This document shows, in pieces, positions 354 to 50,857 of a stretch of DNA of 64,000 bases. Positions within the stretch are counted from its first letter, which is position 1; every line of letters begins with the position of its first letter. The DNA lies in the NCBI GenBank assembly GCA_913055205.1, contig CAJXJN010000004.1, forward strand, positions 1 to 64,000, read 5' to 3'. Position numbers and translations under genes: made by a program. The notes under the pieces are model-generated. The model was given only the letters and a program-made list of their open reading frames with translations. It did not search any database and had not been told where the DNA came from. Source of the DNA: an uncultured Sulfurovum sp. (lineage in GTDB: Bacteria > Campylobacterota > Campylobacteria > Campylobacterales > Sulfurovaceae).

Positions 354-372
354 ATATGTCAAATTGACATAT
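354..372. promoter_or_regulatory. 19-bp palindrome, candidate operator (copy 1)
   Basis: ATATGTCAAATTGACATAT is a perfect palindrome around a central A. It lies about 75 bp upstream of the partial gene that starts at 289. Close relatives occur at 2890, 30964 and 36487, each upstream of a minus-strand gene. A protein binding site is inferred, not shown. Confidence 0.4.
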
Positions 373-2889: not shown

Positions 2890-2908
2890 ATATGTCAAAT
2901 TGACAGAT
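2890..2908. promoter_or_regulatory. palindrome related to ATATGTCAAATTGACATAT (copy 2)
   Basis: ATATGTCAAATTGACAGAT differs from the copy at 354 at one position and lies about 50 bp upstream of the addB start. The position fits an operator or promoter element for addB. The TTGACA on the minus strand could serve as a -35 box, but I see no good -10 at the right distance. Confidence 0.4.
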
Positions 2909-29937: not shown

Positions 29938-29994
29938 ATGGTAAAAAATTTTGATAAGGAAGGGGGTGCTTTTCGATGCCAGGAATTAAACTAA
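29938..29994 (+). CDS. possible 18-residue leader peptide overlapping rpsU start
   Basis: A strong ribosome binding site (AAAAGGAG) precedes ATG at 29938. The frame encodes [18 protein letters not shown] and stops at 29994, inside rpsU but in another frame. The rpsU site AAGGAAGGGGG is within this ORF. Such an overlap could couple or tune S21 synthesis. It may also be accidental. Confidence 0.4.
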
Positions 29995-30188
29995 CTTCAC
30001 GTGATTCATTTGATGACGCTTACAGAAAATTCAAAAGACAATGTGACAGAAACCTTATCGTAACTGAAGCGAGAGCTAGACAGCACTACGAAACTGAAAC
30101 TGAAAAAAGAAAAAAAGAGAAAATTGCAACGCGCAAGAAGATCCTTAAAAAACTTTTCATGCTCAGAAGATACGAGTCTAGACTGTAA
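29976..30188 (+). CDS. rpsU: 30S ribosomal protein S21
   Basis: S21 is a small basic protein of the 30S platform, near the anti-Shine-Dalgarno region of 16S rRNA. The 70-residue protein begins [20 protein letters not shown] and has the conserved Arg/Lys-rich helices ([20 protein letters not shown]). The start is supported by AAGGAAGG upstream. A 44-bp piece of its 3' end is repeated at 30412. Confidence 0.95.
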
Positions 30189-30399: not shown

Positions 30400-30411
30400 G
30401 GCTAATTTTTA

Positions 30412-30455
30412 AAATTGCAACTCGCAAGAAGATCCTTAAAAAACTCTTCATGCTT
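30412..30455 (+). pseudogene. duplicated 3' fragment of rpsU
   Basis: About 44 bp match rpsU positions 30118-30161 with only two visible changes (for example GCAACTCGCAAGAAGATCC for GCAACGCGCAAGAAGATCC). The copy has no start and runs directly into the GTAG repeat at 30458. It probably arose with the insertion of the RAYT element. Confidence 0.75.
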
Positions 30456-30477
30456 TTGGTACGATAGCAATCGCCCC

Positions 30478-30942
30478 CTACGTGAATGATGAATATTTCC
30501 ACTCTTTTGGGTTCTCTACCAGCTCATGTTTGATAGGATTATTTTTCATATACTCTAAACACCGCAGATAATCTTTTTCATCTCTGATGGTATGCTCATA
30601 ATATCGTTTTTGCCATATGGGGTTCATCCCTTTTTTGTGTCGTGCCATAGATTGTTCTTCCTCTTGGGTTACTTTGATAGAGAAATTATATTTAATGGCT
30701 CTCACAATTTTAGGATACTCTTTGGCTTGTTTGGGTGTGATTATCATATGCAGATGGTCAGGCAACACCACAATAGCATCTATACTGTAACGATAATATT
30801 GCTTACTTTGGCGAAAACTCTCTCGTAATGCTTCAATATTATCTATCAAGATAGGATTACGTCGATGGGCAACAATAGTCAAGTAGTAACTATGCCCTTC
30901 TAAAAAGAGTCGCTTATAATCTGCCATTTTTAATTTTAACAA
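30478..30942 (-). CDS. tnpA: REP-associated tyrosine transposase (RAYT)
   Basis: A 154-residue Y1-family (HUH) transposase of the TnpA-REP type, which cleaves single-stranded REP DNA. Visible motifs are VVLPDHLHMIITP with the His-x-His metal site, WQKRYYEHTIRDEKDYLRCL, the catalytic Tyr in CLEYMKNNPIKHELV, and the conserved end WKYSSF. The stop codon TAG lies within the GTAG foot of the flanking repeat. The ORF appears intact, so the enzyme may be active. A palindrome related to the addB upstream site lies 22 bp before the start. Confidence 0.9.
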   Translation of the reverse strand: MLKLKMADYKRLFLEGHSYYLTIVAHRRNPILIDNIEALRESFRQSKQYYRYSIDAIVVLPDHLHMIITPKQAKEYPKIVRAIKYNFSIKVTQEEEQSMARHKKGMNPIWQKRYYEHTIRDEKDYLRCLEYMKNNPIKHELVENPKEWKYSSFT

Positions 30943-30963
30943 AAGAAAACAACCAACCCAAAA

Positions 30964-30982
30964 AATATGTCAAATTGTCATA
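30964..30982. promoter_or_regulatory. palindrome related to ATATGTCAAATTGACATAT (copy 3)
   Basis: ATATGTCAAATTGTCATAT differs from the copy at 354 at one position and lies about 30 bp upstream of the RAYT start, where a regulator could block transcription. Confidence 0.4.
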
Positions 30983-31080
30983 TTTATAAAAAACCGTAGG
31001 GGGCGATTGCCATCGCACCAAGATTACAAATACCAAAATAAAACCTAATATATCATACGATTTTATTAACAAATTGCATA

Positions 31081-31212
31081 GGCGATTGCCATCGCACCAA
31101 ATATTCAAACAGAAATAATCTTGATTTTTATCTTTCAAATACAAATATTTTATGTTGTATCAAATTTTATTGTATGCAAATATATAATGGTGCGATGGCA
31201 ATCGCCCCCTAC
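31081..31212. repeat. 132-bp family A doublet, copy 1
   Basis: It runs from GGCGATTGCCATCGCACC to the inverted end GGTGCGATGGCAATCGCCCC, followed by CTAC. All 132 bases appear identical to 36017-36148. The GTAGG foot of the left arm is replaced by GCATA, so the left end is truncated. Together with the repeat at 30995 it fills the 372-bp gap between the RAYT gene and res. Confidence 0.9.
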
Positions 31213-31314
31213 AACCCACCAATCAAGTACACAACAAAGAGTAGTACCAAATAGGGCTTCCATAATACAAGTAGTATAAAAACCCATTTAATAACATCTT
31301 TCATTTTTAATTAT

Positions 31315-33867
31315 TTATCGTAATAAAACTTCCTCAAACTCAACTTTAAAATCACTCTCCAAAGCATTATTGTAAAACGGTAATCCCAAAACCCTATAAC
31401 ACCCATTCTCATACAAAGGTAAAGCTTTAACATTCATATCTTTTAAAAGCAATCTCTTCTCTTTCGTACACTCTGTAATCGCTTCTAAAAATTCATTTTT
31501 CCATTTGTCATACTCAAAAAGATGTTCTCCTTTGGGTTCACAGAAAACTTGATAGAAACACCCCTCTTTATCTTTTAGCAATAAGATGAAATCAGGTTCA
31601 AACTTTGCACCATCAAGAGCTTTATCGAAGCTAAAAATATCAAATGCTTTTTCATTTCTTATGAGTTTAACCTCTGCATAATGTTTTTGAAGCTCACTCA
31701 TTGAAGCTTTGATAAACTCCACAAAGTGCATCTCTTCTATGGTTCCATTATGAGGCTCAAAAATATACCAATCTTCTACTCTATGAATAGGGCTATCACT
31801 CTCTTTAAGTTTCAGTCTCTTTTGTGGTGGGATTTTTTGGCTTATTCTAACTGGGTAAAATGCACAACTTCCTACATAGTTTTTAGCATTTTTGACAATC
31901 TCTTTTTCTATTATATCGAGCAACTCTAACAAATAGTCCAAAACCACTCCATTGGTTAGCTCAAAGGGTTTAGTGGTATGTAGTGCAAAGGTAACCTCAG
32001 CCAAATAATTACTACTGTCTATAAACTCTCTTATGCTTCTTAGATGAATAAAATACTTTTTCAAGTTAGCAAAGTAGAAAAACGGTTTTTGATTGATGGC
32101 TAATCTCACCAAATCACTCTCCAACTCTTTTACCACAAACTTCTGAACATGAAAAAAAGTCACCTCCGTAACCTCATCTTCATAGACCATAAGTTCATGA
32201 CTTTGGTTATCGATATACCTTTTTTGGCTTTTATATGAAGCCACATAGTCACCTATACCCTTAATCTCTTCTCTTTTTTGTTCAACTCTTCTGTTTACAT
32301 AGATGACTCCCTCTTTATAAAGACTATGGTTTAAAAAACTCTCTTTGACTTTCAGTGTAACGGTTTGGGCATTCTCCTCTTTCTCATCAAGCAGCCCTAT
32401 TCTTCTAAGCTCTTTGGTAATGGCATTGATATAGTCGCTTTGATTAATACTGTGAAAATACATCTCTTCAAGTATCTTTAATGGATCATCTATCTCTTCA
32501 TCAAATTTTCTTTTATATCTGTTGGCATTATCATACACAAAAGGGAAATACCTCGCCCCTCGTCCTATGAGTTGGGCTTCACTGACTGTAGAACTTGCAC
32601 TCTTTTTAACCTCATCAAGCTTGACTATATCAAAAAGATTGAGTACATCCCATCCCTCATTGAGTATATCAACAGCAAAGATAGCCCTCATGGGGTTATG
32701 TTCATCTTCAAGGCTATTGAGGTATTGAAGTTTCTGCTCTTTATCTTTTACCTTTGAGTGAATGACCAAACAGTTTTTCCTAGCAAATCCATACTGTAAC
32801 TGTTTTACAAAAATCTCTTTATCTTCAATATAACTTTGCAACTTTTCTATGGCTTCGAGTCCAGAAGTCTGAAAAACCTCATCAATCTCTTCAATACTTA
32901 ACTGTTCTATAAGCTTTGCAAACATTTCAAATTTGGCATCAGCATCCACGGTATTTTTGACACTCTTAAACATCACTACAGGCTTTATGCTTAGATTTAA
33001 CTTTTTTTGAGCCACAAGCCGTCTGTATTCACTTATCATCACAGCTTGAAGCATCCGTTTTTTATCATCAAAGTTATCACTAATAAGCTTTATCTCTTTG
33101 GAGTAGCCGTCATCTCTAAACTTTTTAAGCGTATAGTCATAGATGATTTTATCTCTATACTTTTGGGCTATTTTTGTATCTGTCAAATCTTGTGTAGCTG
33201 TAAACTCCAAAAGGATATTTTTCTCATTCATATTAAGCAGATTTTGAGTAGTTCTCTCCCAGTTTTGTTCACTCTCTTTTTGGCTTTTTGTATTGGCATT
33301 GAGATGATGGGCTTCATCGGCTATCATCACTATTTTTCTCTCTTTAAAATCCTCATAGGTTATGCTGTTTTCTTTGACAGTCGTCTCTAAATCAATATGC
33401 AGTTTGTTGATTGTTGTAAACAAGATATTGATATCATCAGTCCTACTGCTATCGAAAGTATCTTCTATAAGATTGACTCTAACCTCTTTATTATCGATGC
33501 GTATCTGCTCAGCAAAAAGATATTTACTACTCAATCCATTGAGCAAATTCTCTTTAGTTTTTGTAATGATATTGTTTGTATTGACAAAAAAGATAAAATC
33601 TCTATAGCCTTGTTCATAGAGGTACAAAATCGTACTTGCGATAATATTGGTCTTTCCACTTCCCGTTGCCATGTGAAAGAGTAGATGTTTGTGGGGTATA
33701 TTTTTATGTTTTAAGCTCTTGCTCTGATAAAATACAAAATTCTCTAATGCCTCTACTTGGTAGCCTCTTAGCTTATGTTTGAGGTTGTCACTGATAGATG
33801 ATGGTATCTGGGGCTTTCCTACATACTCATAAGCCTGTTGTATCTCTTGGTATAGCACTCTACTCAT
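31315..33867 (-). CDS. res: type III restriction enzyme, Res subunit
   Basis: Res is the helicase-nuclease subunit that translocates and cuts DNA with Mod. The 850-residue protein has Walker A MATGSGKTNIIA (about residue 65), the DEAH-type box ADEAHH (about 185), and the later helicase motif LIGRGARYFPF. A C-terminal nuclease motif is present: FEPDFILLLKD..FYQVFCEPKG (about 755-780), with Asp and Glu-x-Lys. It overlaps mod by 8 bases. All key residues are present, so it is probably functional. Confidence 0.92.
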   Translation of the reverse strand: MSRVLYQEIQQAYEYVGKPQIPSSISDNLKHKLRGYQVEALENFVFYQSKSLKHKNIPHKHLLFHMATGSGKTNIIASTILYLYEQGYRDFIFFVNTNNIITKTKENLLNGLSSKYLFAEQIRIDNKEVRVNLIEDTFDSSRTDDINILFTTINKLHIDLETTVKENSITYEDFKERKIVMIADEAHHLNANTKSQKESEQNWERTTQNLLNMNEKNILLEFTATQDLTDTKIAQKYRDKIIYDYTLKKFRDDGYSKEIKLISDNFDDKKRMLQAVMISEYRRLVAQKKLNLSIKPVVMFKSVKNTVDADAKFEMFAKLIEQLSIEEIDEVFQTSGLEAIEKLQSYIEDKEIFVKQLQYGFARKNCLVIHSKVKDKEQKLQYLNSLEDEHNPMRAIFAVDILNEGWDVLNLFDIVKLDEVKKSASSTVSEAQLIGRGARYFPFVYDNANRYKRKFDEEIDDPLKILEEMYFHSINQSDYINAITKELRRIGLLDEKEENAQTVTLKVKESFLNHSLYKEGVIYVNRRVEQKREEIKGIGDYVASYKSQKRYIDNQSHELMVYEDEVTEVTFFHVQKFVVKELESDLVRLAINQKPFFYFANLKKYFIHLRSIREFIDSSNYLAEVTFALHTTKPFELTNGVVLDYLLELLDIIEKEIVKNAKNYVGSCAFYPVRISQKIPPQKRLKLKESDSPIHRVEDWYIFEPHNGTIEEMHFVEFIKASMSELQKHYAEVKLIRNEKAFDIFSFDKALDGAKFEPDFILLLKDKEGCFYQVFCEPKGEHLFEYDKWKNEFLEAITECTKEKRLLLKDMNVKALPLYENGCYRVLGLPFYNNALESDFKVEFEEVLLR

Positions 33868-35671
33868 TATCTAGTCCATAAAACTTTTTATTTAGCTTTA
33901 TCTCCTCTGATGATATGCTATACTCCTCATCTTCTATCTCGCTAATAGGGAGATACTGCATATTTTTATTTAACTTAGCGATAGGTGTATTTAAAAAGTT
34001 ATCTATCTCTTTTAGTTCGGCATAGACAAAACTTCCACCACCTTGCCAATTTAAAGCTTTACTTATACCTCCTTGCTCTCCATCTATCACTTTTTTAATC
34101 CTTTCAACTGCTATATCTTCTATATAGTCCATCTGCTCAATACCTATGTATCTTCTGCCCATTTTGTGAGCTACTGCACAAGTTGTTCCGCTTCCTAAGT
34201 GAAAGTCCATAACTATGTCATTTGCATTGGTAGTTAAACTGATAATTCGATAAAGTAATAGTTCAGGTTTTTTCCCATTAGGAAAAGGTACTCCTCCCTC
34301 ATTTTGAGTATTTTGAAAATCTATATCATCCCAAAAATCACATAGCAATGTAGCCAAATCCTCTTCAATTTTTTGATTATAATATATTGGCTTTAATGTT
34401 TTTGACAAAAATGTAAGCCTTCGTCCATTTATTGCATAATTAATATTTTTCTCTTCTCCATATGGAATTATTTCATCTTTCTTTTCTTTTGAGAGCTTTT
34501 TTATTTCAACTGGTAACTCTGGTGCTGTTTGAAAAATTTCATCTTTATGTTTTATATAAAAATGAACAAAATCTTTATTTTGAATATCTAAATCATTTAA
34601 TGTTTCTTTATCTGATAAAATTCCTTTCTCTAATAGCACATCTTTTAATTTTAATATCTTCATATTCTTTTTATCAAGCATATAAGAATAATGCGTATCC
34701 CATTTTTCTTTTTTCATATATTGAGGATTCAATGAGATATTTTTTGTTTTTTTATAAGTTAAAATAAAATCTTTTTGCTTAATAATGGTTCTTTCTCTAT
34801 GAGCTGTTTTCATTCCACTTGCAGTAGAAGACCTTACAGCAATAGTATTTAGATAATTATCTCTACCAAAAATCTCATCACATAAAACCTTCAAATAGCT
34901 TTCTTCATTATTATCAAGATGAATAAATAATATTCCATCATCAGATAAAAATTCTCTTGCCACTTCAAGCCTATTTTTAATAAAAGTAAGCCAAGTAGAA
35001 TGTGTAAAACTATCGTTATATTGAAAACTATCATTCTCTGTATTATAAGGTGGATCAATATAAATCAACTTCACTCTCCCTGCATACCTCTTTTTCAAAC
35101 TATGCAATGCCAAAAGGTTATTACCTTTGATGATAAGATTATCATCCTCTTTTATCTCTTCTACGCTATGCTTACCCTCTTTGTCATAACGTTTAACATT
35201 GGTCAAGACTTTTGGCTCAAAAAGTCTATCTATCTCATCACGGCTTATGATTGCATTGTAAAAAATCTCTTTTTTCTTCTGCTCATCTTTGGTCTGCCCA
35301 CCCTCTAAAACACAATCTTTATAAGGAAATGCCAACACCACATCATCAAACTTTTTGATAAAACTATCTTTTTTGATAAGCCCTATCTTGTTAGTATAGC
35401 TGGTAAATGAGTGGTCAAAATACTCATTCATCGTAAAAAACTCTATGAGATCATTTTGGTTCAGTACATAGACATCCTCTACCTTTATAAAAAACTGCTC
35501 TTTGGCTTTTTTGTCACTTAAAAGTAGTTTGATTAGGTCGCTATCTATTTTTTCTATCGCTTCAAGGATTTTTGGAATAAAAAGTTTCCCCTCTTTGTCT
35601 GTAAATTTTTTAGAAGTTTTAAAGAGGGTTTCCATATGTTCTATAAGAGGTAGAGTAGTATTGGATAGCAT
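33860..35671 (-). CDS. mod: type III DNA methyltransferase, Mod subunit
   Basis: Mod recognises the site and methylates adenine. The 603-residue protein has catalytic motif IV DPPYN (about residue 207) before the SAM motif FHLGSGTT (about 487), the order of beta-class N6-adenine enzymes. The middle part, about residues 270-430, is visibly more AT-rich than the flanks and should hold the target recognition domain. No simple sequence repeat is present, so there is no sign of phase variation by slippage. Confidence 0.92.
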   Translation of the reverse strand: MLSNTTLPLIEHMETLFKTSKKFTDKEGKLFIPKILEAIEKIDSDLIKLLLSDKKAKEQFFIKVEDVYVLNQNDLIEFFTMNEYFDHSFTSYTNKIGLIKKDSFIKKFDDVVLAFPYKDCVLEGGQTKDEQKKKEIFYNAIISRDEIDRLFEPKVLTNVKRYDKEGKHSVEEIKEDDNLIIKGNNLLALHSLKKRYAGRVKLIYIDPPYNTENDSFQYNDSFTHSTWLTFIKNRLEVAREFLSDDGILFIHLDNNEESYLKVLCDEIFGRDNYLNTIAVRSSTASGMKTAHRERTIIKQKDFILTYKKTKNISLNPQYMKKEKWDTHYSYMLDKKNMKILKLKDVLLEKGILSDKETLNDLDIQNKDFVHFYIKHKDEIFQTAPELPVEIKKLSKEKKDEIIPYGEEKNINYAINGRRLTFLSKTLKPIYYNQKIEEDLATLLCDFWDDIDFQNTQNEGGVPFPNGKKPELLLYRIISLTTNANDIVMDFHLGSGTTCAVAHKMGRRYIGIEQMDYIEDIAVERIKKVIDGEQGGISKALNWQGGGSFVYAELKEIDNFLNTPIAKLNKNMQYLPISEIEDEEYSISSEEIKLNKKFYGLDNE

Positions 35672-35701
35672 TAGATTTTCCCTTTTTTTGTATTTTTTAG
35701 A

Positions 35702-35741
35702 AAATATTTAACTATTTTACTCTTTGTGTAGTTAAATATTT
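35702..35741. promoter_or_regulatory. inverted repeat operator between mod and the HTH gene
   Basis: AAATATTTAACTA (35702-35714) and its exact reverse complement TAGTTAAATATTT (35729-35741) are 14 bp apart. A third half-site AAATATTTAA begins near 35764. It lies between the divergent mod and HTH genes, which fits control of both by the small HTH protein. Confidence 0.55.
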
Positions 35742-35828
35742 GCTTTTTTTGTCATAAAAAGAAAAATATTTAATGTGTTGGGAAATTAGGTCATATAAGT
35801 TAGCTTTATAAGTAAAAAAGGCAATAAA

Positions 35829-36014
35829 ATGACCCAAAGAGATAAAGCCATTTACCTAGACATTACACCTGTAACTCTAAGAAACTGGAGAAAAAACAAA
35901 CCAAACCTCTACAAAATCATCATGCTAGGCTTCGCATTTGAAGAGGCTGTTAAAAAGTCCAAAGAGAATTATGAGACGTTGGAGAGGTTGGAGCGTGAGG
36001 TGGTGGATTCGTAG
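35829..36014 (+). CDS. small HTH protein beside the R-M genes
   Basis: A 61-residue protein whose first half (DKAIYLDITPVTLRNWRKNK) reads as a helix-turn-helix, with a helical tail. It is divergent from mod with an inverted repeat between them, so it could be a controller for the R-M genes. AAAGGCAATAAA precedes the ATG. Its stop codon TAG is the GTAG foot of the 138-bp repeat at 36011, so the original C-terminus may have been altered by the insertion. A degenerate copy of its 3' half follows the repeat. Confidence 0.6.
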   Translation: MTQRDKAIYLDITPVTLRNWRKNKPNLYKIIMLGFAFEEAVKKSKENYETLERLEREVVDS

Positions 36015-36148
36015 GGGGCGATTGCCATCGCACCAAATATTCAAACAGAAATAATCTTGATTTTTATCTTTCAAATACAAATATTTTATGTTGTATCAAA
36101 TTTTATTGTATGCAAATATATAATGGTGCGATGGCAATCGCCCCCTAC
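36011..36148. mobile_element. 138-bp REP doublet (family A), copy 2
   Basis: Complete inverted ends GTAGGGGGCGATTGCCATCG and CGATGGCAATCGCCCCCTAC enclose 90 bp of AT-rich sequence. Its last 132 bp appear identical to 31081-31212. With no gene inside, it is a non-autonomous element that the RAYT at 30.5 kb could mobilise. Confidence 0.85.
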
Positions 36149-36160
36149 AGATGGTACCAA

Positions 36161-36486: not shown

Positions 36487-36505
36487 ATATGTCAAGTTGT
36501 CATAC
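36487..36505. promoter_or_regulatory. palindrome related to ATATGTCAAATTGACATAT (copy 4)
   Basis: ATATGTCAAGTTGTCATAC, with three changes from the copy at 354, lies about 130 bp upstream of the candidate toxin ORF and about 90 bp before purT on the other strand. Confidence 0.3.
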
Positions 36506-41062: not shown

Positions 41063-41155
41063 CGTAGGTCGGGTTCTCCTGATCCCGACACTTATTTGCA
41101 AAAAAATATCTTCTGCATCTTTAATAAACGTCGGGATGAGGGCAACCCGACCTAC
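41063..41155. repeat. GTAG hairpin pair (REP family F), copy 1
   Basis: The left arm is CGTAGGTCGGGTTCTCCTGA then TCCCGAC (41063-41089), and the right arm is GTCGGGATGAGGGCAACCCG then ACCTAC (41130-41155). Each has a GTAG foot and a GTCGGG/CCCGAC hairpin. It lies inside the sdhA-sdhB operon and could alter the ratio of the two proteins. Confidence 0.85.
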
Positions 41156-45703: not shown

Positions 45704-45847
45704 CGTAGGTCGGGGTGCCCTCTCCCCGACATAAACCTGCATACTATTACATTTAAAAAGCAAGACCAAATGTATATGCAATTACCAAAAAATAACAACA
45801 TTATTTCCAATTATATTATTGTCGGGGAGAGGGCACCCCGACCTACG
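45704..45847. repeat. GTAG hairpin pair (REP family F), copy 2
   Basis: The left arm is CGTAGGTCGGGGTGCCCTCT then CCCCGAC (45704-45730), and the right arm its exact inverse at 45821-45847 (GTCGGGGAGAGGGCACCCCG then ACCTACG). On the minus strand the TAG of the GTAG foot is the cytochrome stop codon. It fills the gap between two convergent genes. Confidence 0.88.
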
Positions 45848-49096: not shown

Positions 49097-50185
49097 ATGT
49101 CAAGCATTGTCTTACTAGGTTCTACAGGCTCCATAGGGGTCAATACTCTCATCATTGCCAAGCGTTACAACATTGCCATAGAGGCCCTTGTAGCGGGGAA
49201 TAATATTGATCTGCTCAATGAACAGATCAAGGAACACAACCCTAAGGTGGTCGCCATTGCCAATGAAGCAGACAAAGACAAAGTTGACCACTCCAATGTG
49301 CTTTGTGGAGCTGACGGCATCCTCTCGGTCATAGAGGAATCAAAAAGTAAAACTGTGGTCAATGCCCTCGTAGGCTATGCAGGACTGGCACCCACGCTCA
49401 AAGCCACAAGCCTTGGTAAAAAAGTAGCCCTTGCAAACAAAGAGTCACTCGTCGTTGCAGGTGAGTTCATAGATATGTCCCTCATCACACCCATTGACTC
49501 TGAGCATTTTGGATTATGGTACCTGATGAATGAACGTCCCGTCTCCAAACTTTACATTACGGCAAGTGGTGGTGCCTTTAGAGACTGGGAACTGGAGAAA
49601 ATGAAAGATGCTACTTTTTCAGATGCACTCAAACATCCTAACTGGTCAATGGGAAATAAGATCACCATAGACTCAGCAACGATGACAAACAAACTCTTTG
49701 AACTTCTGGAAGCCAAATGGCTTTTTGACACCAACAATATCGACGCAGTCATAGAAAAAAAGTCTATCATCCATGCCTTGGCAGAGTTCAAAGACGGTTC
49801 AACCACTGCACACTTTGCAGGAGTAGACATGAAACTCCCTATTGCCTTTGCACTTAGAGGTGAAGTAAGTGAAGCCATCTTGCCTCCTACAGATCTACTC
49901 AGTATGGGAGCTGTAGAATTTTTACCCATAAAAGCAGAGCGTTACCCGATCTGGAACATTAAAGAGCACATTTTAAACAATCCTCATTTAGGTGTGGTAG
50001 TCAATGCTGCCAATGAAATAGCTATAAAGGCCTTTCAACAAGAGAAATGCTCTTTCTTTGGAATGAGTAAAATGGTTTTGGATGCGTATGAGAAGTTTGG
50101 AGATGTCAAAGCAAACAGTATTGATGAGATTGTGGAAATAGATAGAGAGGTCAGAGCATATGTTGGTTCATTCAAATCTATGTAG
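49097..50185 (+). CDS. dxr: 1-deoxy-D-xylulose 5-phosphate reductoisomerase
   Basis: The second step of the MEP isoprenoid route, making MEP with NADPH. The 362-residue protein starts MSSIVLLGSTGSIGVNTLII (NADPH loop), has ANKESLVVAGEF, PIDSEHFGLW and the flexible loop HPNWSMGNKITIDSATMTNK. The TAG stop is part of the GTAG foot of the family E repeat at 50182, so the repeat is fused to the gene end. Confidence 0.95.
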   Translation: MSSIVLLGSTGSIGVNTLIIAKRYNIAIEALVAGNNIDLLNEQIKEHNPKVVAIANEADKDKVDHSNVLCGADGILSVIEESKSKTVVNALVGYAGLAPTLKATSLGKKVALANKESLVVAGEFIDMSLITPIDSEHFGLWYLMNERPVSKLYITASGGAFRDWELEKMKDATFSDALKHPNWSMGNKITIDSATMTNKLFELLEAKWLFDTNNIDAVIEKKSIIHALAEFKDGSTTAHFAGVDMKLPIAFALRGEVSEAILPPTDLLSMGAVEFLPIKAERYPIWNIKEHILNNPHLGVVVNAANEIAIKAFQQEKCSFFGMSKMVLDAYEKFGDVKANSIDEIVEIDREVRAYVGSFKSM

Positions 50186-50223
50186 GGGTGCCCTTTATGG
50201 GTACCCACAAGGGATACCCCTAC
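50182..50223. repeat. GTAG hairpin (REP family E), copy 1
   Basis: GTAGGGGTGCCCTTTATGGG is followed by TACCC, and then an inverted end CACAAGGGATACCCCTAC. The stem is GGGTgCCC/GGGTACCC (one G-U). It supplies the dxr stop codon and fills the gap to the hydrolase gene. Confidence 0.8.
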
Positions 50224-50242
50224 AGTTAAAGAAGGTACCTCT

Positions 50243-50773
50243 ATGAAGACCCTTATTTTGCACGGTTGGGGAGGGAGTGATGCTCCACACTGGCAGGCAG
50301 AGCTTGCAAGTGAAATAGCCAAAAACTACGGTACTGTCTCATTTCCACTGCTTGACAACTGTCATTTTCCCTCTAAGAACAGATGGTTAAAACAGGTCAA
50401 AGCTTTGCTTGAAGATTTTAAACCTGACACTGTGGTGTGCCACTCTTTAGCCAACACACTTTGGTTTTGGCTCTGTGAGGAAGATATAATTCCGGTTAAA
50501 AGACTTTTTATGGTCTCACCACCAAGTCTTACTACAGAGATCGATACCATTAAAACGTTTTTCCCTTGTAAGTTGCCACAAAAACTCTGTGCAAAAGAGG
50601 TACAGATGATCGTCTCAGACAATGATCCCTATATAAAAGTCGAGGAAGCACAACAAATGGCTTCTCATTATGATATTCCTTTAACGATCATCCAGAATGC
50701 GGGCCATATCAATGCTGACTCAGGGTATGGGAAATGGGGACTTATAGAAAAACTTGTAATGGAAGAGCTATGA
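50243..50773 (+). CDS. RBBP9/YdeN-type alpha/beta hydrolase
   Basis: A 176-residue serine hydrolase of the RBBP9 family. The start is MKTLILHGWGGSDAPHWQ. The nucleophile Ser is in VCHSLANTLWFW, the acid is probably the Asp in VSDNDPYI, and the His is in NAGHINADSGYG. The substrate is unknown. It lies between two family E repeats in the plus-strand run from cdsA to tsaD. Confidence 0.85.
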   Translation: MKTLILHGWGGSDAPHWQAELASEIAKNYGTVSFPLLDNCHFPSKNRWLKQVKALLEDFKPDTVVCHSLANTLWFWLCEEDIIPVKRLFMVSPPSLTTEIDTIKTFFPCKLPQKLCAKEVQMIVSDNDPYIKVEEAQQMASHYDIPLTIIQNAGHINADSGYGKWGLIEKLVMEEL

Positions 50774-50785
50774 TATTTTTTATTC

Positions 50786-50857
50786 GTAGGGGTGCCCCTT
50801 GTGGGTACCAAAAAAACAAAATTCAAAGACAAGGGTACCCACAAGGGATACCCCTAC
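50786..50857. repeat. GTAG hairpin pair (REP family E), copy 2
   Basis: GTAGGGGTGCCCCTTGTGGG then TACC (50786-50809) and the inverse GGGTACCCACAAGGGATACC then CCTAC (50833-50857) form an inverted doublet. It sits just before the tsaD ribosome binding site and creates a false upstream extension of tsaD. Confidence 0.85.

Follow-up and report, generated by a model that had tools for sequence, protein, structure and literature searches.

RAYT locus

The window (the whole stretch of DNA analysed, 64,000 nt of a contig from an uncultured Sulfurovum sp.) contains a REPtron, in which a RAYT gene is flanked by GTAG-foot hairpins that belong to its own family and are inverted to one another, the RAYT and the REPs both being of known kinds. 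The following features were located at the RAYT and in the adjoining region:

30458..30481, minus strand: REP of family A at the RAYT 3' end, two mismatches to the consensus
30478..30480, minus strand: RAYT stop codon TAG; the downstream REP supplies it as letters 2-4 of its GTAG foot
30481..30927, minus strand: RAYT (TnpA-REP-like) coding sequence, 149 aa, with H58-L-H60 as HUH motif and the catalytic Tyr aligned to Y126
30966..30982: near-palindromic operator (predicted), TATGTCAAATTGTCATA, 38 nt upstream of the RAYT ATG
30996..31019, plus strand: REP of family A upstream of the RAYT, foot facing the gene
31081..31104, plus strand: REP of family A, left-truncated, foot lost
31081..31213: exact direct repeat of 133 nt (REP pair and spacer), identical to 36017-36149
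31189..31212, minus strand: REP of family A
31315..33867, minus strand: type III restriction subunit (ResIII/DEAD) between two REP pairs, a bystander
33860..35671, minus strand: type III modification methylase, a bystander
35829..36014, plus strand: ORF of 61 aa, its stop likewise the TAG of a REP foot
36011..36034, plus strand: REP of family A
36125..36148, minus strand: REP of family A
36011..36148: complete family A REP pair (REPIN) of 138 nt, feet outward

RAYT protein

The ORF at 30478-30942 (minus strand) was matched by NF047646 REP_Tyr_transpos (151.2 bits, cut-off 80) and by Y1_Tnp (45.9 bits, cut-off 23), and E. coli TnpA-REP (PDB 4er8) was matched to the window RAYT at an E value of 2.3e-19, bearing out a preliminary description of this DNA that had placed a RAYT with HUH and Tyr motifs there. 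The start is likely ATG 30927 rather than TTG 30942, and the alignment with 4er8 begins at this ATG. H58, H60 and Y126 are invariant among six related proteins of the same genome and are also aligned with 4er8. Residues W105, Q106, E111, H112 and R115 correspond, as read off the same alignment, to E. coli W94, Q95, E100, H101 and R104, to which GTAG recognition in E. coli TnpA-REP has been tied, with the role of W94 termed unclear (PMC6006769, PMC8266576).

The locus resembles E. coli RAYT/TnpA-REP (group 2, 4er8) and its REPtrons in the Y1 HUH family, the HUH and Tyr motifs and the GTAG-contact residues, and in having inverted REPs of its own family on both sides of the gene (PMC6006769). Unlike the E. 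coli protein, the window RAYT has no C-terminal tail and ends at the position of E. coli residue 137-138 (of 165); in E. coli the tail contacts GTAG and tunes activity, and a derivative, delta144, is said to be defective (PMC8266576). Since the window RAYT is shorter than delta144, its activity is not a given. Two further differences from E. coli are that the REP foot closes the reading frame and that the promoter carries a predicted SOS-like operator. In the accessible text of PMC7606416, E. coli rayT is given with Sigma70 only.

REP families of the genome

All copies of family A (consensus GTAGGGGGCGATTGCCATCGCACC; five full and one truncated) lie inside 30458-36148, within 5.7 kb. The two that bracket the RAYT (30458-30481, minus strand, and 30996-31019, plus strand) have arms that are 93% complementary and are the inverted GTAG-foot hairpins of the preliminary description, which had also stated that further copies follow; more family A copies are indeed present, confined to this 5.7-kb region, and the rest belong to a sister subfamily. 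Searched through the whole genome at up to three mismatches, the family A pattern gave 14 matches (0 in the reversed control), of which the remaining nine are of this subfamily, A' (GTAGGGTGCGTTTGCCAACGCACC), on other contigs; as to whether copies are few elsewhere in the genome, family A itself has no exact copy there and A' supplies its nine matches. The stem of A' departs from that of A at three places: both letters of the second base pair counted from the loop are altered (A-T to T-A), and where A has a mismatched pair A' has T-A. With A' as query 21 matches were obtained for A and A' together. As single-stranded DNA the family A hairpin has a folding energy of −6.6 kcal/mol (z −2.9); the z values of the others are −5.1 (A'), −5.3 (C), −1.8 (D) and −1.4 (F), so that hairpin stability is weak for D and F. 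The stem begins directly after the GTAG foot in A, A', C and D, and one base after it in F. Automatic hairpin finders missed mismatched stems, those of family A included.

The genome assembly (1.66 Mb, 86% complete) holds three close RAYTs and three distant relatives, and the supposition that other RAYTs lie outside the window proved right, with RAYT2 on contig C2 (61% identical to the window RAYT) and RAYT3 on contig C1 (54%). RAYT2 is flanked by REPs of family C (GTAGGTCGGG..., GTCGGG; 31 genome matches, control 0), whose copies in the window start at 41064, 41130, 45705 and 45821. A third family, GTAGGTNTGACC..., flanks RAYT3, with five matches, all beside RAYT3; the control also gave three matches, so that this count alone is not evidence. 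Family F has 20 genome matches (control 0), none of them beside any RAYT of this 86%-complete assembly. The GTCGGG family and family F confirm that other GTAG-foot families with different hairpins share the window:

41064..41155: REP pair, GTCGGG family (RAYT2 cognate)
45705..45846: REP pair, GTCGGG family (RAYT2 cognate)
50182..50857: four REPs of family F (GTAGGGGTGCCC...), no adjoining RAYT in the assembly

The preliminary description had raised the possibility that one RAYT handles several hairpin families, and had proposed comparing copy counts with the number of RAYT genes over the whole genome. Each of the three close RAYTs was found to have its own flanking family, which makes a shared enzyme unneeded except for F, whose 20 matches have no RAYT beside them. 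A single RAYT that mobilises several families, F included, would account for F, and in relatives, OWN1-clade RAYTs do bear both A- and A'-type REPs; we nevertheless consider it improbable, given the separate families at all three RAYTs and an assembly that is just 86% complete. The one-contig relative G001 (99% complete), with eight F matches and no RAYT match at 1e-15, fits an orphan family equally well.

RAYTs and REPs in relatives

Related loci (179) were obtained from a scan of named genomes and the best 80 of the 179 were used, of which 52 are Campylobacterota by title, mostly Sulfurovum and kin (L089, titled "bacterium", counted in). A quick tree was built from 62 Campylobacterota RAYTs, namely relatives, the three of this genome and nine further loci from the genus, leaving out 28 non-Campylobacterota loci, the truncated L119 and L121, and 16 genus loci whose protein was identical to that of another locus; with 22 of its 59 inner branches open, the tree is weakly supported. 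Judged by eye on these 62 rows, REP type follows RAYT clade: GGGGCGAT REPs occur with the nearest OWN1 kin, whose neighbours have GGGTGCGTT-like types; the 23-row OWN2 clade has GTCGG types and GGGTGTTGT types too, and GGTTTGG and GGTGTGAC REPs go with OWN3.

RAYTs (E ≤ 1e-15) were found in 32 of 78 genomes of the genus; 30 were taken as RAYT-bearing in the count test (G044 and G064 dropped, having a distant match only), some of their copies being partial or decayed. Over the 78 genomes, counts were higher with a RAYT for A' (median 4.5 vs 0, p = 2e-5) and for C (median 7 vs 0, p = 1.4e-5), and not for F (p = 0.12). A' was most abundant with an OWN1-type RAYT (median 21, n = 7, vs 1, n = 71; p = 1.7e-4), and C was higher with an OWN2-type RAYT over all 78 genomes (p = 3.2e-4) and not clearly so among RAYT-bearing genomes only (p = 0.083); clade labels came from one RAYT locus per genome, and genomes with several RAYTs may be mislabelled. 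Five to 28 C copies were counted in 10, and 5-13 A' copies in seven, of the 48 genomes with no detected RAYT, some of the RAYT-less carriers being nearly complete. The question whether such REPs are equally common in relatives lacking a RAYT thus receives a mixed answer: A' and C are commoner with a RAYT, F shows no difference, and the RAYT-less carriers imply that REPs outlive RAYTs or that RAYTs are missed in fragmented assemblies. RAYT loss following REP spread is the model of PMC3686654.

The GTAG foot, short stem and paired arrangement agree with the GTAG repeats of Di Nocera et al. 2013 (PMC3733652), which were reported in Sulfurovum sp. NBC37-1; unlike the present loci, those are described, in the accessible text, with no word of operator control or of a regular role as RAYT stop codon.

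REP foot as stop codon

The minus-strand end of the window RAYT reads ...TCA TTC ACG TAG GGG GCG. Such use of a REP foot is in itself known, GTAG-repeat termini often supplying TAG stops to ORFs (PMC3733652) and REPs being known directly after RAYT stop codons (PMC2817692); the addition here is its regularity at Campylobacterota RAYTs, where it was found in 32 of 62, RAYT1 and RAYT2 included and RAYT3 not (31 of 60 without L072 and L077, which have internal stops; L099, with ATAG instead of GTAG at the stop, was scored as negative). It could be argued that this is a by-product and simply reflects how often REPs land at gene ends, with nothing special to RAYTs, since 8 of the 57 feet read in the genome end an ORF of at least 60 aa, two of these ORFs being RAYTs, and Di Nocera et al. 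noted the same for ORFs generally (PMC3733652). Against this stand the RAYT frequency itself, the reading frame (of the feet overlapping an ORF end, 32 of 34 are in frame), and the spacing between the foot and the conserved WxYxS, which takes eight different values between 1 and 27 codons, so that the frame was kept through shifts. A minimum of 17 changes of the foot-as-stop state is also needed on the tree, which is weakly supported. The naive p value of 1.4e-13 is too small, the rows being related. On balance we hold the by-product explanation to be rather doubtful.

Promoter palindrome

All three RAYTs have a 17-bp palindrome, TATGWCAAWTTGWCATA, in front of the ATG at a distance of 38-54 nt. 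A repeat search of the window found the palindrome around ATATGTCAAATTGACATAT at 349, 2885, 30960 and 36482, and besides the site at the RAYT the window has these predicted copies:

355..371: operator copy (predicted), exact palindrome, upstream of an ORF
2891..2907: operator copy (predicted), one mismatch, upstream of an AddB-like ORF
36488..36504: operator copy (predicted), upstream of purT

Nine exact and seven one-mismatch sites were found in the 1.66-Mb genome (control 0), and 15 of the 16 contexts were read, three of them RAYTs. Genes after sites that were matched above NCBIfam cut-off encode RecA (558.9 bits), RecG (586.2 bits), RadA/Sms (623.9 bits), RadC (213.8 bits) and PurT (560.3 bits), and a gene for an S24/CI-type repressor has a site 54 nt before its ATG. 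The AddB-like ORF is a weak match (25.2 bits, cut-off 486.5); the remaining contexts hold a rhodanese, an ORF matched to an N6-methylase, one unnamed ORF, and OsmC and SecA/LolA, these last by eye only.

Across the 78 genomes, 300 exact sites were found (reversed control 8), in 67 genomes, and 119 of the 300 contexts were read. Queries from the present genome named 40 of the 119 (S24 repressor 15, RecA 13, RadA 7, PurT 2, AddB 1, RadC 1, and one doubtful RAYT, L218, at 23% identity), and the other 79 were unmatched by them; 112 candidate ORFs were listed at these, many of them spurious because both strands were listed. A scan of 59 of the 112, picked by eye, gave DprA (4), Y-family polymerase (3), DUF2130 (3), Gp49-like (3), RuvA (2), Mg-chelatase/YifB (2) and NgoPII (2), among others. 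When ten ORFs were searched with NCBIfam, YifB, an integron integrase and RuvA scored above cut-off and RecQ above a subfamily cut-off, DprA fell just below (177.1 vs 191.15), the polymerase fell below its cut-offs, UvrA was a piece ending at the locus edge, and two had no match. The integrase (L210, 1644-2639, genome G020; TIGR02249, 422.6 bits) lies about 156 nt downstream of its operator and the UvrA start more than 200 nt from its site, which makes both weaker members. The operator also precedes recA in RAYT-less genomes (L198 in G007, L201 in G010), so that the predicted regulon is independent of RAYTs. One predicted operator stands before recA, the repressor gene and repair genes, as in an SOS regulon, and we take the palindrome to be the operator of an SOS-like regulon with RAYTs among its members.

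A weight matrix built on 118 sites at other loci was used to score the regions upstream of 61 Campylobacterota RAYTs (L074 was left out, its upstream sequence being too short); the site pattern was first seen partly at RAYTs, and the matrix loci include no close RAYT. Forty of the 61 scored above the 99% shuffle level and 21 had no clear operator. The 40 operators are placed regularly, 38 of them 34-56 nt and 31 of them 38 or 39 nt before the ATG. By Hamming distance (within four mismatches) the operator was found at 31 of 43 RAYTs in the larger clade and 5 of 18 in the smaller. None of 27 RAYTs outside Campylobacterota passed the matrix, and an E. coli-type LexA box was not found beyond shuffles before 24 RAYTs of other groups (one at one mismatch; shuffle rate 5%).

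Two uncharacterised groups of ORFs follow the operator in other genomes. One, a conserved ORF and putative member of the regulon that starts MYxKKKE(R/K) 39-56 nt after it, was seen at L216, L217, L223, L226, L229, L246, L265 and L294 (no NCBIfam match for L226), and the other, a family of about 100 aa (MKPTSKELLE..., MDASSKSYIE...), at L199, L232, L255, L260, L290, L293, L302 and L307 (no NCBIfam match for L232). Genome G017 has nine identical TATGCCAAATTGACATA copies, which probably belong to a mobile element; they were kept out of the weight matrix and, L207 excepted, of the contexts.

Candidate repressor

The S24/CI-type protein scores above cut-off for PF07022 (29.9 bits, cut-off 22) and PF00717 (74.6 bits, cut-off 23.3) and below it for the LexA equivalog TIGR00498 (34.9 bits, cut-off 110.95), so that it is not formally LexA. 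Fifteen orthologues are 83-97% identical to it, with Ala97-Gly98, Ser138 and Lys175 invariant in all 16, residue roles having been set by eye from the S24 features in PMC8565304. By sequence, the protein has the features of an autocleavable S24 (CI/LexA-like) repressor, with HTH and S24 domains, Ala-Gly, Ser and Lys. In a protein search 2964 relatives came up at the 1e-10 level, and the named organisms among the 120 listed are mostly Sulfurovum; the structure model is poor (mean pLDDT 45.3). The closest analogue known to us is the non-canonical LexA of Bacteroidetes, which is alike in its CI-type HTH and S24 domains, scissile Ala-Gly and Ser-Lys dyad, and in controlling SOS genes through a palindromic motif (PMC8565304). 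It differs in phylum, the comparison made here covering domains, residues and type of control, and its authors' searches, in the accessible text of PMC8565304, did not find this type outside Bacteroidetes.

Mechanism and alternatives

REPs build up slowly and RAYTs are kept as host-inherited genes; for the timing of RAYT action, an operator shared with recA offers a concrete candidate trigger. The locus is a REPtron that probably works as TnpA-REP does and is probably switched by DNA damage through the operator of an S24/CI-type repressor, and the RAYT takes its stop codon from the REP foot. Most likely the RAYT would cut and join REP hairpins in single-stranded DNA and so seed REP pairs in the genome, as E. 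coli TnpA-REP does. We infer that the autocleavable repressor binds the site and would hold down the RAYT, recA, radA, recG, radC and its own gene; damage or DNA uptake would yield single-stranded DNA and RecA filaments, on which the repressor would cleave itself, and the RAYT would then be made just when REP hairpins are single-stranded. The gene is bolted at its 3' end to a REP, the GTAG foot that acts as stop codon being also the probable recognition site of the enzyme. As the RAYT promoter shares the recA operator and the stop comes from the REP, the spread of the repeats may be linked with DNA damage.

Two other accounts of the palindrome have to be weighed. The locus could be an ordinary REPtron, of the kind implied by the GTAG REPs already reported from Sulfurovum sp. 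NBC37-1 (PMC3733652), with the palindrome a general promoter element or the site of an unrelated regulator and no link to damage; the TTGACA part of the operator does resemble a −35 box by eye. A general element would not be so rare (9 exact sites in 1.66 Mb; 300 vs 8 in the control over 78 genomes), nor placed for the most part, among identified contexts, before recombination or repair genes or the S24 gene, and we regard this account as quite improbable. Sites at DprA (four members), YifB/ComM, RadA and RadC would also suit a natural-competence regulon responding to uptake of single-stranded DNA, in which RAYTs are made with RecA, DprA, RadA, ComM and RadC in place of an SOS response. The candidate controlling protein, however, is a repressor of the S24 autocleavage type with its own operator, and sites occur at RuvA, Y-family polymerase and RecQ genes as well, with an integron integrase about 156 nt from another; competence instead of SOS therefore seems unlikely, though the two readings may both be true.

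The damage-switched reading points to an SOS-like regulon under a non-LexA repressor in Campylobacterota, to our knowledge a phylum without classical LexA control. Among the matches listed from the open-licence PMC literature, no paper describing RAYTs under SOS control, or such a repressor in Sulfurovum and its kin, was found. SOS-controlled ISCR transposases are alike in that a transposase gene is under an SOS repressor and differ in that this was shown with E. coli LexA (PMC13393415), RAYTs being IS200/IS605-like and not insertion sequences. As a tentative extension, Campylobacterota RAYTs might belong to a single-stranded-DNA alarm regulon under a CI-type S24 repressor, with REP spread scheduled in the damage or uptake response and the foot-as-stop making the RAYT self-reporting: a flanking REP that is lost or cut would leave a longer RAYT tail, and in E. 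coli it is the tail that tunes activity.

Neighbouring genes and other repeats

The type III restriction-modification genes were considered as RAYT cargo and rejected: res, mod, purN, nnr and the 61-aa ORF gave no tblastn match at ≤1e-5 at 110 other RAYT loci (flanks of up to 3 kb at 80 loci and up to 1.5 kb at 30), and the pair is therefore treated as a bystander. The two copies of the 133-nt exact direct repeat (31081-31213 and 36017-36149) bracket the pair, and recombination between them would delete it. On the other side of the RAYT lies an rpsU-like ORF (29976-30188, so named by eye), whose 3' part has a 44-nt near-copy at 30411-30454; this near-copy ends where the downstream REP starts, which suggests insertion beside or into a duplicated gene end.

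A hairpin family that lacks the GTAG foot, GGAAGTGGAGACTTCAGTCCCAC, occurs in the window at 379-401 and 459-481 and also at L004 383-480 and 1107-1130; it recurs by a distant RAYT relative on contig C40 and may be its cognate. Another distant relative (L005) lies between 41-nt inverted repeats (1381-1421 and 2082-2122), in which it resembles the transposases with flanking TIRs of Di Nocera et al.
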